Positions 5,206-27,597 of a stretch of 59,934 bases of DNA are shown piece after piece. The DNA is from Clostridia bacterium 41_269. GTDB taxonomy: Bacteria > Bacillota > DTU086. The stretch is from positions 116,392 through 176,325 of the forward strand of contig LGEZ01000001.1 in assembly GCA_001508005.1 (NCBI GenBank). Direction: 5' to 3'. Below the pieces are notes generated by a model. It did not search any database. It was given only the letters and a program-made list of their open reading frames with translations, and had not been told where the DNA came from. Each line of letters begins with the position of its first letter. The stretch's first letter is position 1. A program made the position numbers and the translations under genes.

Positions 5206-5229
5206 AGTGGAGGTTTTGCTTACAGCCTG

Positions 5230-5259
5230 GAGCAGATTTTAAGATCTGCTCTTTTTTTT
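5230..5259 (+). terminator. Intrinsic terminator after fliS
   Basis: GAGCAGAT at 5230-5237 pairs perfectly with ATCTGCTC at 5244-5251 over a 6-base loop and is followed directly by eight T residues (5252-5259). It ends the flaG-fliD-fliS transcript 24 bases after the fliS stop codon and isolates it from the riboswitch-controlled operon downstream. Confidence 0.92.
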
Positions 5260-5332
5260 GTCGATAAAAAAGAAAAAAATTTGTGTTTAATGCGGGGTTT
5301 ACTTTTTTAATGTAGAAATAAAGCAAAAAAAT

Positions 5333-5359
5333 TTGATATTTTCCTTAATGTGCTACTCT
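5333..5359 (+). promoter_or_regulatory. Possible sigma-A promoter of the flgB operon
   Basis: TTGATA at 5333-5338 and TACTCT at 5354-5359, preceded by an extended TGC, lie immediately upstream of the riboswitch. The 15-base spacer is short, and other AT-rich hexamers in 5260-5370 could serve instead. A start near 5366 would place the riboswitch at the extreme 5' end of the transcript, which is why this candidate is preferred. Confidence 0.35.
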
Positions 5360-5370
5360 TTGATAAAAAT

Positions 5371-5458
5371 ACCATGTTGGGCAAGCTTTCCGAAAGGAAA
5401 TGCGCGCAAAGCAATGGGTCTAAGGCCCTTCTTTGAGGGCTATGACTGCCATGCTGCA
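5371..5458 (+). ncRNA. Cyclic di-GMP-I (GEMM-I) riboswitch
   Basis: The segment carries the conserved blocks of the class I c-di-GMP aptamer in order: GGGCAAGC at 5379-5386, a hairpin with GAAA tetraloop (TTTCCGAAAGGAAA, 5387-5400), GCGCAAAGC at 5404-5412, GGGTCTAAGGC at 5417-5427, a second hairpin, and GCTATGACTGCC at 5439-5450. Aptamers of this class bind the second messenger c-di-GMP in the junction between the two hairpin arms. It is followed by an intrinsic terminator and then flgB, so it is placed to control the whole 28-kb flagellar operon. In Clostridioides difficile a riboswitch of the same class sits before flgB and shuts flagellar expression off when c-di-GMP is high; the same direction is inferred here but not proven. 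Confidence 0.93.
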
Positions 5459-5475
5459 GATTAAAAGTGTCGGCG

Positions 5476-5498
5476 CCTATCCTTTGGATAGGTTTTTT
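5476..5498 (+). terminator. Riboswitch-associated intrinsic terminator (expression platform)
   Basis: CCTATCC at 5476-5482 pairs with GGATAGG at 5486-5492 across a 3-base loop, followed by six T residues. It lies 18 bases after the aptamer and 25 bases before flgB, so it would stop transcription before the operon unless an alternative fold forms. I could not identify the antiterminator partner with certainty. Confidence 0.82.
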
Positions 5499-5523
5499 AT
5501 AAATTTTTTGGGGGACAGGTGTT

Positions 5524-5937
5524 ATGAGCTTTATTTTTAGTGATCCTGCTGTAAAGGTTCTGGAAAAATATTTGGACGCTGCCTATCAGCGCCAGGAGGT
5601 TACTGCCAACAACATAGCCAACATCAATACTCCCGGCTACAAAAAATCTTATGTAGTTTTTGAGGAATTCCTGGCACAGGCTCTGAAGGAAAAGGAAGGA
5701 ATTCCTTTAAGGCGCACCCATCCTGCCCATATGGGGTCAGTGCCGGCGTTGGAGGAAATTGCTCCTGAGATCAGAAGGGACTACAGTACTTCCCACAGAA
5801 CGGATGGAAATAACGTGAGCATTGAAGAGGAAATGGCGGTTCTTGCGATGAATGCCATCAATTACAATCTGGCAGCCCAGCAGTTGAGCAACAAGCTGTC
5901 CCTTTTAAGGTATGTGATCACAGAGGGGAGGGGATAA
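5524..5937 (+). CDS. flgB: Flagellar basal-body rod protein FlgB
   Basis: FlgB is a proximal rod subunit, secreted by the flagellar export apparatus to link the MS ring to the rod. The 137 residues have the family N-terminus with the rod-protein signature QEVTANNIANINTPGYKKS (about residues 24-42) and the C-terminal amphipathic helix with NAINYNLAAQQLSNKLSLLR. The start is ATG at 5524, eight bases after a GGGGGACAGG ribosome site. It is the first gene after the riboswitch and terminator; flgC follows after 3 bases. Length and order (flgB-flgC-fliE) match other Firmicutes. Confidence 0.97.
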   Translation: MSFIFSDPAVKVLEKYLDAAYQRQEVTANNIANINTPGYKKSYVVFEEFLAQALKEKEGIPLRRTHPAHMGSVPALEEIAPEIRRDYSTSHRTDGNNVSIEEEMAVLAMNAINYNLAAQQLSNKLSLLRYVITEGRG

Positions 5938-15116: not shown

Positions 15117-15308
15117 ATGATTGAGATCACTACTCTAAACGGAAGAAGGGTTACCATCAATGCCGAGCTTATAGAGATGGTTGAAAGGGTTCCCGAAACG
15201 CTGATTACCCTTACTACGGGAAGGAAAATGCTGGTTAAAGAAACTCCGGAGGAAGTTAAGCAGCTGGTTCTGGAGTACCGGCGGCTTATACAGCCGCCGG
15301 TATCCTAA
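15117..15308 (+). CDS. flbD: FlbD/SwrD family flagellar protein
   Basis: A 63-residue protein of the FlbD family (SwrD in Bacillus subtilis, where it raises flagellar power for swarming). The whole protein is recognisable: MIEITTLNGRR, then a beta strand containing IEMVERVPETLITLTTGRK and the ending VKETPEEVKQLVLEYRR. No membrane segment is present. A GGAGG ribosome site lies 9 bases before the ATG. It sits directly between flgE and the stator genes motAB, the typical position. Confidence 0.93.
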   Translation: MIEITTLNGRRVTINAELIEMVERVPETLITLTTGRKMLVKETPEEVKQLVLEYRRLIQPPVS

Positions 15309-24328: not shown

Positions 24329-25165
24329 ACTTAGAGAGCAGGCATTAAGCAGAAGAAATTTAAAAGCGCCCACCAGGATCATAGCTGTTACCAGCGGTAA
24401 AGGAGGGGTGGGTAAAACCAATCTGGCCGTAAACTTGGCCATCTGCCTTGCTTCTTTTGGGAAAAAGTTGCTCTTTTGGATGCAGATTTGGGAACAGCAA
24501 ATGTGGATGTGCTTTTGGGATTGGTTCCTAAATATTCCCTTTATGATGTGTTCAGCGGAAGAAAAAATATTGAGGAAATTGCAGTAAAGGGACCAGCTGG
24601 TGTAAATATTATTCCCGGCGGTTCAGGCTTTAACGAGTTGGTTTATTTAAGCAGTATTGAAAAGAAAACCATAGAGGAAAGTATTGGGGATTTTACGGGA
24701 AAACACGATTTTCTTTTCATAGATACAGGGGCAGGCATTTCCCGAAATGTACTGGCTTTTGTCAGTGCAGCCAGTGAAGTTATTATGGTGGTTACTCCGG
24801 AACCCACTTCCATAGCAGATGCCTATGCTTTGATTAAGGTTTTGTGGAAATTTAAGTTAAATGAACGTATTTATCTGGTGGTTAATATGGCTGCCAGTTT
24901 TTCTGAGGCTAGGCAGACCTCAGAAAGAATAACAGCAGCAGCCAGGCATTTTTTAAAGAAAGAGATTAATGTTTTTGGTTATGTGCTGGATGACGAATGT
25001 GTGGGAAATGCAGTAAAAAAACAGATGCCCTTTGTGCTGCTGTATCCTAGAGCGCGGGCATCCTATCAGATAAAAGCGGTTTCTAAGAATTTAATGCTGG
25101 GAAAAGTGAGCAATGAACTGGCTAAGGATAGATTTGCTTCCAGAATACTGCGCATTTTTGGATGA
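24312..25165 (+). CDS. flhG: MinD-like flagellar ATPase FlhG, with apparent single-base frameshift
   Basis: FlhG (YlxH) is a MinD-type ATPase that partners FlhF to control flagellar number and place. The first frame encodes MDQASKLREQALSRRN and the deviant Walker A loop TSGKGGVGKTNLAVNLA. The second frame continues with LLDADLGTANVDVLLGL and the rest of the ATPase to 25165. They join if the A5 run at 24462-24466 has one more A, reading GKKVALLDADLG, a perfect family sequence. The joined protein has about 285 residues, the normal length. ATG 24312 overlaps the end of flhF. As written, the gene would yield only a short fragment containing the Walker A motif. Confidence 0.9.
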
Positions 25166-25183: not shown

Positions 25184-25876
25184 TTGGTGACGGTTTCTGA
25201 ACTTTTTAAAGTCAATGCCAAAATGGATATTAAGCGTGAAGGGGAAAGGGTATATTATAAAACTTCTATTCAGGAAATTTCGGACGAATATATTGGAATA
25301 CATATACCATCTTATCGGGGAAAGGAAATGATTTTAATGCCTGGGGATTATGTAAATGCGAGGGTTTTTTTAGAAGATGCCCAGTATGTTTTTAATGCTA
25401 CCGTATTGGGGAGGAAAAAAGATAGGGTGCCTCTATATATGCTCTCTATGCCCTCAAATGTTAAAAGAGTGCAGATGAGGGACTATGTAAGAATTAAGGT
25501 GCAGCTTCCAGTTAAATATAAAGTTCTTGAGGAAACCAGGAAAAATGCTGAGAACGGTGCTGATGATGAAGATAAAAAGTTTGAAAATGCATATACCGTG
25601 GATATAAGCGGTGGGGGGGTGCAGCTGGTTGTTTCCAAACCTGTTGAGGTGAATCAAAGGCTGTATCTAAAATTTAAAATTTGTGATTTAAAAAATAGGG
25701 ATATTGAAATTACGGCTAAAGCAAGGGTTGTTAGGAGAGAGCAGATCTTTAATGAAAGAAATAAATGGAGCTTAGGCATAGCTTTCGAAGATATTTCTGA
25801 AACCCAAAGAGATCTGATTATAGCTTTTGTGTTTAGAAAACTCATTGAGCAGAGGCGCCTTGAGGTGGAAGGTTAA
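25184..25876 (+). CDS. PilZ-domain c-di-GMP receptor, YcgR-like flagellar brake
   Basis: The 230 residues have an N-terminal YcgR-type domain (about 1-95) and a C-terminal PilZ domain with the c-di-GMP-binding motifs R99-D-Y-V-R103 and DISGGG (140-145). In related proteins (YcgR, MotI/DgrA) c-di-GMP binding makes the protein slow or stop the flagellar motor. The gene sits between flhG and sigD, as ypfA/motI-like genes do in several Clostridia. The start is TTG 25184 after GGGAGGT; GTG 25187 is an alternative. Together with the riboswitch in front of flgB it gives c-di-GMP a second point of control. Confidence 0.9.
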   Translation: MVTVSELFKVNAKMDIKREGERVYYKTSIQEISDEYIGIHIPSYRGKEMILMPGDYVNARVFLEDAQYVFNATVLGRKKDRVPLYMLSMPSNVKRVQMRDYVRIKVQLPVKYKVLEETRKNAENGADDEDKKFENAYTVDISGGGVQLVVSKPVEVNQRLYLKFKICDLKNRDIEITAKARVVRREQIFNERNKWSLGIAFEDISETQRDLIIAFVFRKLIEQRRLEVEG

Positions 25877-26640
25877 TGCTGTTAAAAAAAAGGGAAGAGC
25901 TGTGGAGGGAGTATTTACAGAATAAAAGTGAAAGGGCTTTTCAGGAACTTGTGGAATCCTATCTGCCCCTTGTGAAACACATAGCGGGGCGGCTCAACTT
26001 TAAGCTTCCCCTTCACATGGATCAGGAGGATTTGGTAAGCTGCGGCATTTTCGGCCTTATGGAGGCTTTAAAGAAATTTGATCCAAGTAAGGGTGTTAAA
26101 TTTGAAACCTATGCGGCTCAGAGGATCAGGGGATCCATCGTGGATGCATTAAGACAGGGACAGTGGGCTCCCCGTTCCGTAGCTTCTAAGCTTAAGGAGT
26201 TTCAGAGGATACTTTGGAAGCTGGAGGGGGAGGAAGGAAAAGAAGTTTCCGAAAGCAGGATAGCGGAAGAAATGGGCATCAGTGTTGATGAGGTCCATTC
26301 TCTGCTGGCTGAAATTAATAAAATGGCAGTGATCTCCCTTGAGGATTTTCTCCTGGGTAAAGGGGAAGGCATGACTGTGGGGGAAACCCTTTCGGATGCC
26401 CACAGCCCTAATCCTCTGTCGGAAATGGTGGAAGAAGAGTTGAAAAGGTCTTTGGTTCAAGCTGTGGAAGCACTTCCGGATAAGGACAGATTGGTGATTT
26501 CCCTTTATTATTATGAAGGGCTTACCCTTCGGGAGATTGGAAGGATTCTTGGCGTTTCTGAGTCCAGGGTCAGCCAGCTCCATGCCAGGGCTATTCTCAA
26601 ACTGCGGGAAGCATTAAAAAAGTATATTAACCAAGACTGA
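25876..26640 (+). CDS. sigD: Flagellar RNA polymerase sigma factor SigD (FliA/WhiG family)
   Basis: SigD directs RNA polymerase to late flagellar and chemotaxis promoters. The 254 residues contain region 2 (DLVSCGIFGLMEALKKFDP, then KFETYAAQRIRGSIVDALR), region 3 with APRSVASKLKEF, and region 4 with the helix-turn-helix LTLREIGRILGVSESRVSQL. These are typical of the FliA/SigD group. The start codon overlaps the preceding stop codon (TAATG). A matching promoter is seen at 1831-1857. No flgM anti-sigma gene is in the window. Confidence 0.96.
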   Translation: MLLKKREELWREYLQNKSERAFQELVESYLPLVKHIAGRLNFKLPLHMDQEDLVSCGIFGLMEALKKFDPSKGVKFETYAAQRIRGSIVDALRQGQWAPRSVASKLKEFQRILWKLEGEEGKEVSESRIAEEMGISVDEVHSLLAEINKMAVISLEDFLLGKGEGMTVGETLSDAHSPNPLSEMVEEELKRSLVQAVEALPDKDRLVISLYYYEGLTLREIGRILGVSESRVSQLHARAILKLREALKKYINQD

Positions 26641-26656: not shown

Positions 26657-27115
26657 ATGGCGTATATTTTAATGTTGCTGGGAATGCTTCTTATTCTGCT
26701 TTCAGGAAAAAATGCAGTGAAGCAGTTGAGGGAAAAAGAAAATTTTTATGGCTTTAAGGAAGCATTAAAAAAGCTTGAACAGCGCATGGATGAAATTGAG
26801 AAGAAGATAGTGTCCTTGGAAGAAAAATCAGGCCGTTCCGTTTTTAAGGAAATTCATTCTCCCCTTCTTGAGGAGAAAATAAATAATTTAACTTTAAGCT
26901 TATCAAAAATTGAAAGAAAACTGGATAACTTTGGAGAAATGGGAGAAAAGCTGAATGTTGACAAAAAGTTTGAAGATTATGTTAGAGATGCTGAGGCTGA
27001 CGACTTTCAGAAAATACGCACGGCTTTTGAAATGGGCAAAACCATTGATGAAATAGCAGAGGAGTTTGGGAGAGGAAAGGGTGAGGTGGAATTAATTTTG
27101 AACTTGAAAAGATGA
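26657..27115 (+). CDS. SwrB-like membrane-anchored coiled-coil protein (DUF6115 type)
   Basis: The 152 residues start with one membrane segment (YILMLLGMLLILLSG), followed by a coiled coil (about 25-105) and a C-terminal helix-turn-helix-like motif GKTIDEIAEEFGRGKGEVELILNLK. This layout and the position right after sigD match SwrB of Bacillus subtilis, which helps to activate the FliPQR export gate during basal-body assembly. Sequence similarity to SwrB outside the C-terminal motif is not visible, so I treat it as a probable functional analogue. The stop overlaps the next start (ATGA). Confidence 0.75.
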   Translation: MAYILMLLGMLLILLSGKNAVKQLREKENFYGFKEALKKLEQRMDEIEKKIVSLEEKSGRSVFKEIHSPLLEEKINNLTLSLSKIERKLDNFGEMGEKLNVDKKFEDYVRDAEADDFQKIRTAFEMGKTIDEIAEEFGRGKGEVELILNLKR

Positions 27116-27597
27116 GAAGATTTATAAATGTCTATGCGGTACTGCTGTGGGGGATAGGATTGGGCTTATTTATTTCCGGCTTTGTACTGGCAGCATTTCC
27201 CCAAAAGCCCTCAAAAATGGAAATTGAGGAAATGGCAAGGAATTTGGGAATGGTTTACAGAGAAGAAGTGGTGGTATACGACAGCGGATCATCAGATAAA
27301 GATGCCGGTAAAGGGGAAGAAAAATCAGAAAAAAGAGATGTACCGGTAGCCAAAGGGAGCAGTATAGAGAAATCTTCTGTTATAACAGTAAGAGTTGAAC
27401 CTGGTCTCACCCTGGAACAGGTGGGAAATCTCCTTGCGAAGGAGGGAGTAATCGAAAATCAAGAAAGTTTTGTGGTTTTGGTTCAGAAGATGGGACTCAG
27501 CGACAAACTTATAGCGGGTACCTATACCTTTAAACGAGGTGAGGATGTTTCAAAAATTATAAATGCTCTTACGAGCGGAAAAAAGGAGGGCAGCTGA
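27112..27597 (+). CDS. MltG/YceG-like membrane protein without the catalytic domain
   Basis: The 161 residues show a membrane anchor near the N-terminus (YAVLLWGIGLGLFISGFVL), a low-complexity Lys/Glu/Ser linker, and a C-terminal domain with VEPGLTLEQVGNLLAKEGVI and LIAGTYTFKRGEDVSKIINAL. This is the LysM-like N-terminal substrate domain seen in the endolytic transglycosylase MltG; the catalytic part of MltG is missing. It lies between the swrB-like gene and flgF with zero or overlapping spacing. A role in local peptidoglycan binding during rod insertion is an inference from this context only. Confidence 0.72.
   Translation: MRRFINVYAVLLWGIGLGLFISGFVLAAFPQKPSKMEIEEMARNLGMVYREEVVVYDSGSSDKDAGKGEEKSEKRDVPVAKGSSIEKSSVITVRVEPGLTLEQVGNLLAKEGVIENQESFVVLVQKMGLSDKLIAGTYTFKRGEDVSKIINALTSGKKEGS

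Follow-up and report, generated by a model that had tools for sequence, protein, structure and literature searches.

The flgB leader of Clostridia bacterium 41_269 contains a class I c-di-GMP riboswitch aptamer with an intrinsic terminator behind it, and we consider it likely that together they act as an OFF switch that works by terminating transcription ahead of the flgB-fliY operon. Flagellum building in this anaerobe is then probably stopped at high c-di-GMP. We infer each of three parts of this reading, namely that the aptamer binds its ligand, that the direction is OFF, and what prevents the terminator from forming in ligand-free RNA.

Aptamer, terminator and flanks of the flgB leader

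Rfam covariance models were used to search the 60-kb window (the whole stretch of DNA analysed, 59,934 nucleotides), and the sole family to reach its cut-off was RF01051 (c-di-GMP-I, or GEMM-I), which matched 5370-5461 on the forward strand over the full model (1-87 of 87) with 61.3 bits (E 1.4e-9) against a gathering score of 35 bits. The original prediction had named a class I c-di-GMP aptamer and proposed this very search as a check, and both the identification and the significance of the score are borne out. The Rfam alignment and folding agree on P2 (5386-5402), which the alignment caps with a GAAA tetraloop at 5392-5395, and on P3 (5410-5455), with C5427-G5438 as its apical pair. The alignment also recovers the pocket G, A and C, at G5380, A5408 and C5457, which we take to be the equivalents of G20, A47 and C92 in Vc2 of V. 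cholerae; C5405-G5448 presumably corresponds to the Vc2 tertiary pair C44-G83. The predicted block, 5379-5450, was right to within a few bases but ends short of the 3' pocket, since the C92 equivalent is C5457. Compared with the Vc2 type of RF01051, the full-length match, the GAAA-capped P2, P3 and the three pocket residues are shared, but usually conserved sites are off-consensus here, with UU in place of AA before GGC and CGC in place of GAC after P2, and one U is inserted in P2.

About 13-14 nt beyond the aptamer lies the intrinsic terminator (5475-5498, forward strand), made up of a hairpin at 5475-5493 with eight pairs (seven Watson-Crick and a basal G-U), a UUU loop, and six T at 5493-5498. 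When 5462-5523 was dinucleotide-shuffled 300 times, a terminator-like hairpin of equal stability arose just 6 times. The terminator with six T had been predicted to stand before flgB with a 7-bp stem, and it does, the basal G-U bringing the stem to eight pairs. A likely ribosome-binding site, GGGGGA, follows at 5510-5515, 8 nt before the ATG of flgB (5524-5937). The leader has an intrinsic terminator between aptamer and flgB, as does Cd1 of Clostridioides difficile, with which it also shares the RNA family, the position in the flgB leader, sigD within the operon, and the lack of a clear P1 helix beside the pocket; the 14-nt spacing of aptamer and terminator is a point of difference from Cd1.

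On the upstream side, a 10-pair terminator-like hairpin with a T run (5229-5259) follows fliS and sets the flgB leader apart from fliD-fliS upstream. The 30 nt directly before the aptamer (5340-5369) differ by one substitution from those of a congener, and the sequence further upstream diverges; this conserved flank may be the 5' strand of P1, leader or promoter. Upstream of the aptamer, no sigma-A promoter scored above chance, nor was any shared with the congener. The best sigma-A-like site (5313-5342) was rejected as a promoter, being weak and not kept in the congener. No convincing sigma-A promoter stands in 5265-5369, although many relatives have such a promoter, its -10 box about 20-45 nt before the aptamer.

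The flagellar gene run

The leader is followed by 38 co-directional genes on the forward strand, from 5524 to 33729 (28.2 kb), identified with Pfam. This count includes flbD (15117-15308), an overlooked gene that sits in an apparent 247-nt gap, and takes the frameshifted flhG as one gene. The run begins with flgB, flgC, fliE, fliF, fliG, fliH, fliI and fliJ, and continues with a fliK-like gene (11858), a fliK C-terminal part (12970) and flgD (13753); flgE, flbD, motA, motB, fliL, fliN, fliO, fliP, fliQ and fliR; flhB, flhA, flhF, flhG, pilZ/ycgR, sigD and a DUF2802 gene (27112); and lastly flgF, flgG, cheD, cheR, cheC, cheY, fliM and fliY. The gene at 25876-26640 encodes sigma-70 regions 2, 3 and 4, and we name it sigD, the flagellar sigma factor, from its position and established knowledge. 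Directly before it, at 25184-25876, is a YcgR-type PilZ protein (PilZNR and PilZ domains), a presumed c-di-GMP-responsive motor brake. It is a second, protein sensor of c-di-GMP in a riboswitch-headed operon, making two layers of c-di-GMP control.

Sequence-based prediction had put about 37 genes, including sigD and the chemotaxis genes, under direct control of the one RNA sensor. The gene count agrees well with ours, and sigD, cheD, cheR, cheC and cheY are indeed in the run, but these four are its only chemotaxis genes and cheA is not among them. The chemotaxis set of the operon is thus incomplete, the genome's single CheA dimerisation-domain match being located some 23 kb ahead of the window. 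Direct control is a matter of what we infer about transcription: one transcript over all 38 genes is plausible, and this single site may control the whole operon. Within the gene run, no promoter-like or terminator-like sites were found above chance.

Two further observations concern individual genes. The flhG gene is split over two frames, with a P-loop N-terminal part from 24300 and the remainder at 24476-25165; the frame changes at a purine run near 24460-24470, and flhG of the congener is a single frame. We think it probable that the assembly is in error here or that the gene is broken. Between sigD and flgF, two small genes (26657-27597) are kept in the congener; one encodes the DUF2802 protein and the other a product whose C-terminal match is YceG-like.

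Conservation within the family and spread in the phylum

In the congener, a metagenome-assembled genome (G001), a flgB leader stands before the same gene order, with protein identities of 45-96%, and the two leaders are almost identical over 5340-5455. The identity of the aptamer, the terminator and their placing ahead of the flgB-to-fliY run hold both by computation and in the congener. In P3, the congener has U-A in place of C5427-G5438, which is compensatory and the only change in a paired stem of the aptamer (one pair); the remaining differences affect the P3 loop, G5456 and the linker (5464-5471). In two other genera of the family (L226 in G002 and L227 in G003), flgB has no c-di-GMP-I aptamer upstream, even at E 0.05. 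The aptamer before flgB is one that has been gained or lost within one family.

The genome carries three RF01051 aptamers, and the congener has counterparts of all three. The two others, L001 (G000:C6) and L002 (G000:C21), are located before a chemoreceptor (4HB_MCP) gene and a histidine-kinase-like HATPase-domain gene, with L010 and L013 as their counterparts. A c-di-GMP-II search of the genome gave zero matches, as it did in the control genomes. There are 14 GGDEF-domain and 3 EAL-domain matches, and c-di-GMP is therefore probably made and broken down by this organism. Given these matches and the G at the selectivity position of the aptamer, c-di-GMP is the expected ligand.

Across the phylum, RF01051 was found in 229 of 300 genomes. 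Using a model built here and a threshold of at least 50 bits, a same-strand aptamer was identified upstream of flgB at 39 of 111 loci in 21 families (44 of 111 with weak matches counted), though loci were picked by rank of similarity to this FlgB, making the fraction a biased estimate for the phylum, and a few of the 111 end early at contig ends. All 18 such loci checked with Rfam pass the cut-off of RF01051 or of its GGC variant, RF03167. Desulfotruncus, Desulfoscipio and Desulfallas are among the named genera with the arrangement. Between aptamer and flgB, 26 of 54 usable leaders have a terminator no less stable than -8 kcal/mol, against 3.7 expected. In the openly available literature, we found no paper that joins c-di-GMP riboswitches with flagellar operons of the Desulfotomaculum type.

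Some leaders are built differently. RF03167 (c-di-GMP-I-GGC) replaces RF01051 in the flgB leaders L071, L072, L100 and L143. Tandem c-di-GMP-I aptamers are found upstream of flgB in L058 (848-931 and 1156-1239), each with its own terminator-like hairpin, and in L099 (157-240 and 313-396), where both score weakly.

Direction of the switch and competing readings

The riboswitch before flgB of C. difficile works as an OFF switch and controls sigD by way of the flgB operon (PMC11477304), and in the pilM ON switch a strand of the aptamer itself goes into the terminator (PMC9262584). The leader described here has a homologous aptamer fold and a terminator in common with the pilM cGAMP riboswitch of Geobacter metallireducens, but its selectivity position is a G and its aptamer and terminator are separate. 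In structure folding the two elements do not overlap and fold together, which fits an OFF rather than a pilM-type ON design. We favour OFF because of homology, with Cd1 as precedent, and physiology. Under this model, binding of c-di-GMP while the leader is being transcribed would lock P2, P3 and the pocket (G5380, A5408 and C5457), the terminator at 5475-5498 would form, and transcription would halt before flgB. At low c-di-GMP, the ligand-free RNA would adopt folds incompatible with the aptamer and some polymerases would read through, giving the early flagellar genes and sigD and, via sigD, the late genes.

How the terminator might be held open was examined through a search for an antiterminator, and no significant one was found in the leader. 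The Cd1 antiterminator forms between the terminator strand and the 3' pocket residues G86-C87 and is only transiently stable (PMC9262584). Pairing of this type, between the 5' arm of the terminator and the last 26 nt of the aptamer, is absent here (z -0.58, p 0.29). The best candidate pairs P2 and its flanks (5382-5406) with the terminator (5472-5496) at -21.5 kcal/mol; it is conserved in the congener, and at transcript end 5489 the resulting fold is nearly iso-energetic with the aptamer fold (-40.0 vs -40.4 kcal/mol). It was rejected, being equalled by 14-20% of hairpin-preserving shuffles, with many foreign aptamers pairing better. Also rejected were a leader hairpin at 5344-5381, which is no more stable than shuffles, and long-range P1 helices using 5464-5471, which are not kept in the congener. 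In a heuristic co-transcriptional fold, the ligand-free RNA formed the terminator with either assumed start and switching was not reproduced; runs with ligand were discarded for an incomplete candidate set. In the wider panel, the terminator 5' arm matches the 5' pocket strand of the aptamer more than controls do (per-family mean z -1.17 vs -0.35, p 0.02), which is suggestive of OFF wiring in other flgB leaders of the group and does not extend to this one, where the match is absent (z -0.26). As to an invertible flagellar switch, the inverted repeats listed are short or A/T-rich.

The terminator also forms in ligand-free folds, and together with the missing antiterminator this would be in keeping with an aptamer that binds c-di-GMP to little effect on termination, the terminator being a largely constitutive attenuator or the gating taking place at translation or RNA stability. 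We find this unlikely. Terminators are strongly enriched behind flgB aptamers in the phylum (the 26 of 54 noted above), and the ribosome-binding site is downstream of the terminator and not part of the aptamer. Moreover, the Cd1 antiterminators that have been tested exist only transiently and differ from the equilibrium fold (PMC9262584), and equilibrium folding is therefore a weak test. A platform that differs from Cd1 can also be imagined, in which no pairing of the arm with the 3' pocket is used, the switch works through displacement of P2 or through the conserved 30-nt 5' flank, and the riboswitch also controls the PilZ/YcgR brake in a two-layer c-di-GMP circuit; we regard this as speculative, with a small but real chance of being correct.

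An ON switch, in which the ligand blocks termination, could for instance stabilise a helix in which the 5' flank (5350-5361) pairs with 5464-5476 and so occupies the base of the terminator. When transcripts ending at 5483 are folded, the minimum-energy structure contains this helix, with G5475-C5476 in it, but it would cost the terminator only 2 of its 8 pairs, and the congener has uncompensated changes on its 3' side (5464-5471) and an identical 5' side. Activation of flagellar genes by c-di-GMP would also go against what is usual in biology and against the precedent of C. difficile, and we judge an ON direction improbable. Lastly, the off-consensus residues at usually conserved positions could mark a divergent aptamer that no longer binds or that responds to a different cyclic dinucleotide (3',3'-cGAMP). 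Aptamers of the cGAMP type have an A at the selectivity position (Vc2 G20); here that position is G5380, and the A that defines the 3',3'-cGAMP GEMM-I variant is therefore missing. The position equivalent to Vc2 G20 has been termed a selectivity factor (PMC9262584). The pocket residues are kept and the aptamer is nearly unchanged in the congener, with its one paired-stem change compensatory. Either outcome seems very improbable to us, and the OFF switch responding to c-di-GMP is the reading we retain.

The arrangement is of a well-known and ordinary kind, now in a new lineage. Mildly notable are how it has spread and turned over among flgB operons, the absence of a Cd1-type antiterminator, and a protein c-di-GMP sensor placed under an RNA sensor. 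These flgB leaders lend themselves to comparing the ways in which one aptamer has been connected to different terminators in nature. With more than one-third of the examined flgB loci, in 21 families, carrying the aptamer, the C. difficile arrangement is no peculiarity of that pathogen, and for the uncultured anaerobe studied here it would place the flagellar programme under RNA-level control by c-di-GMP.
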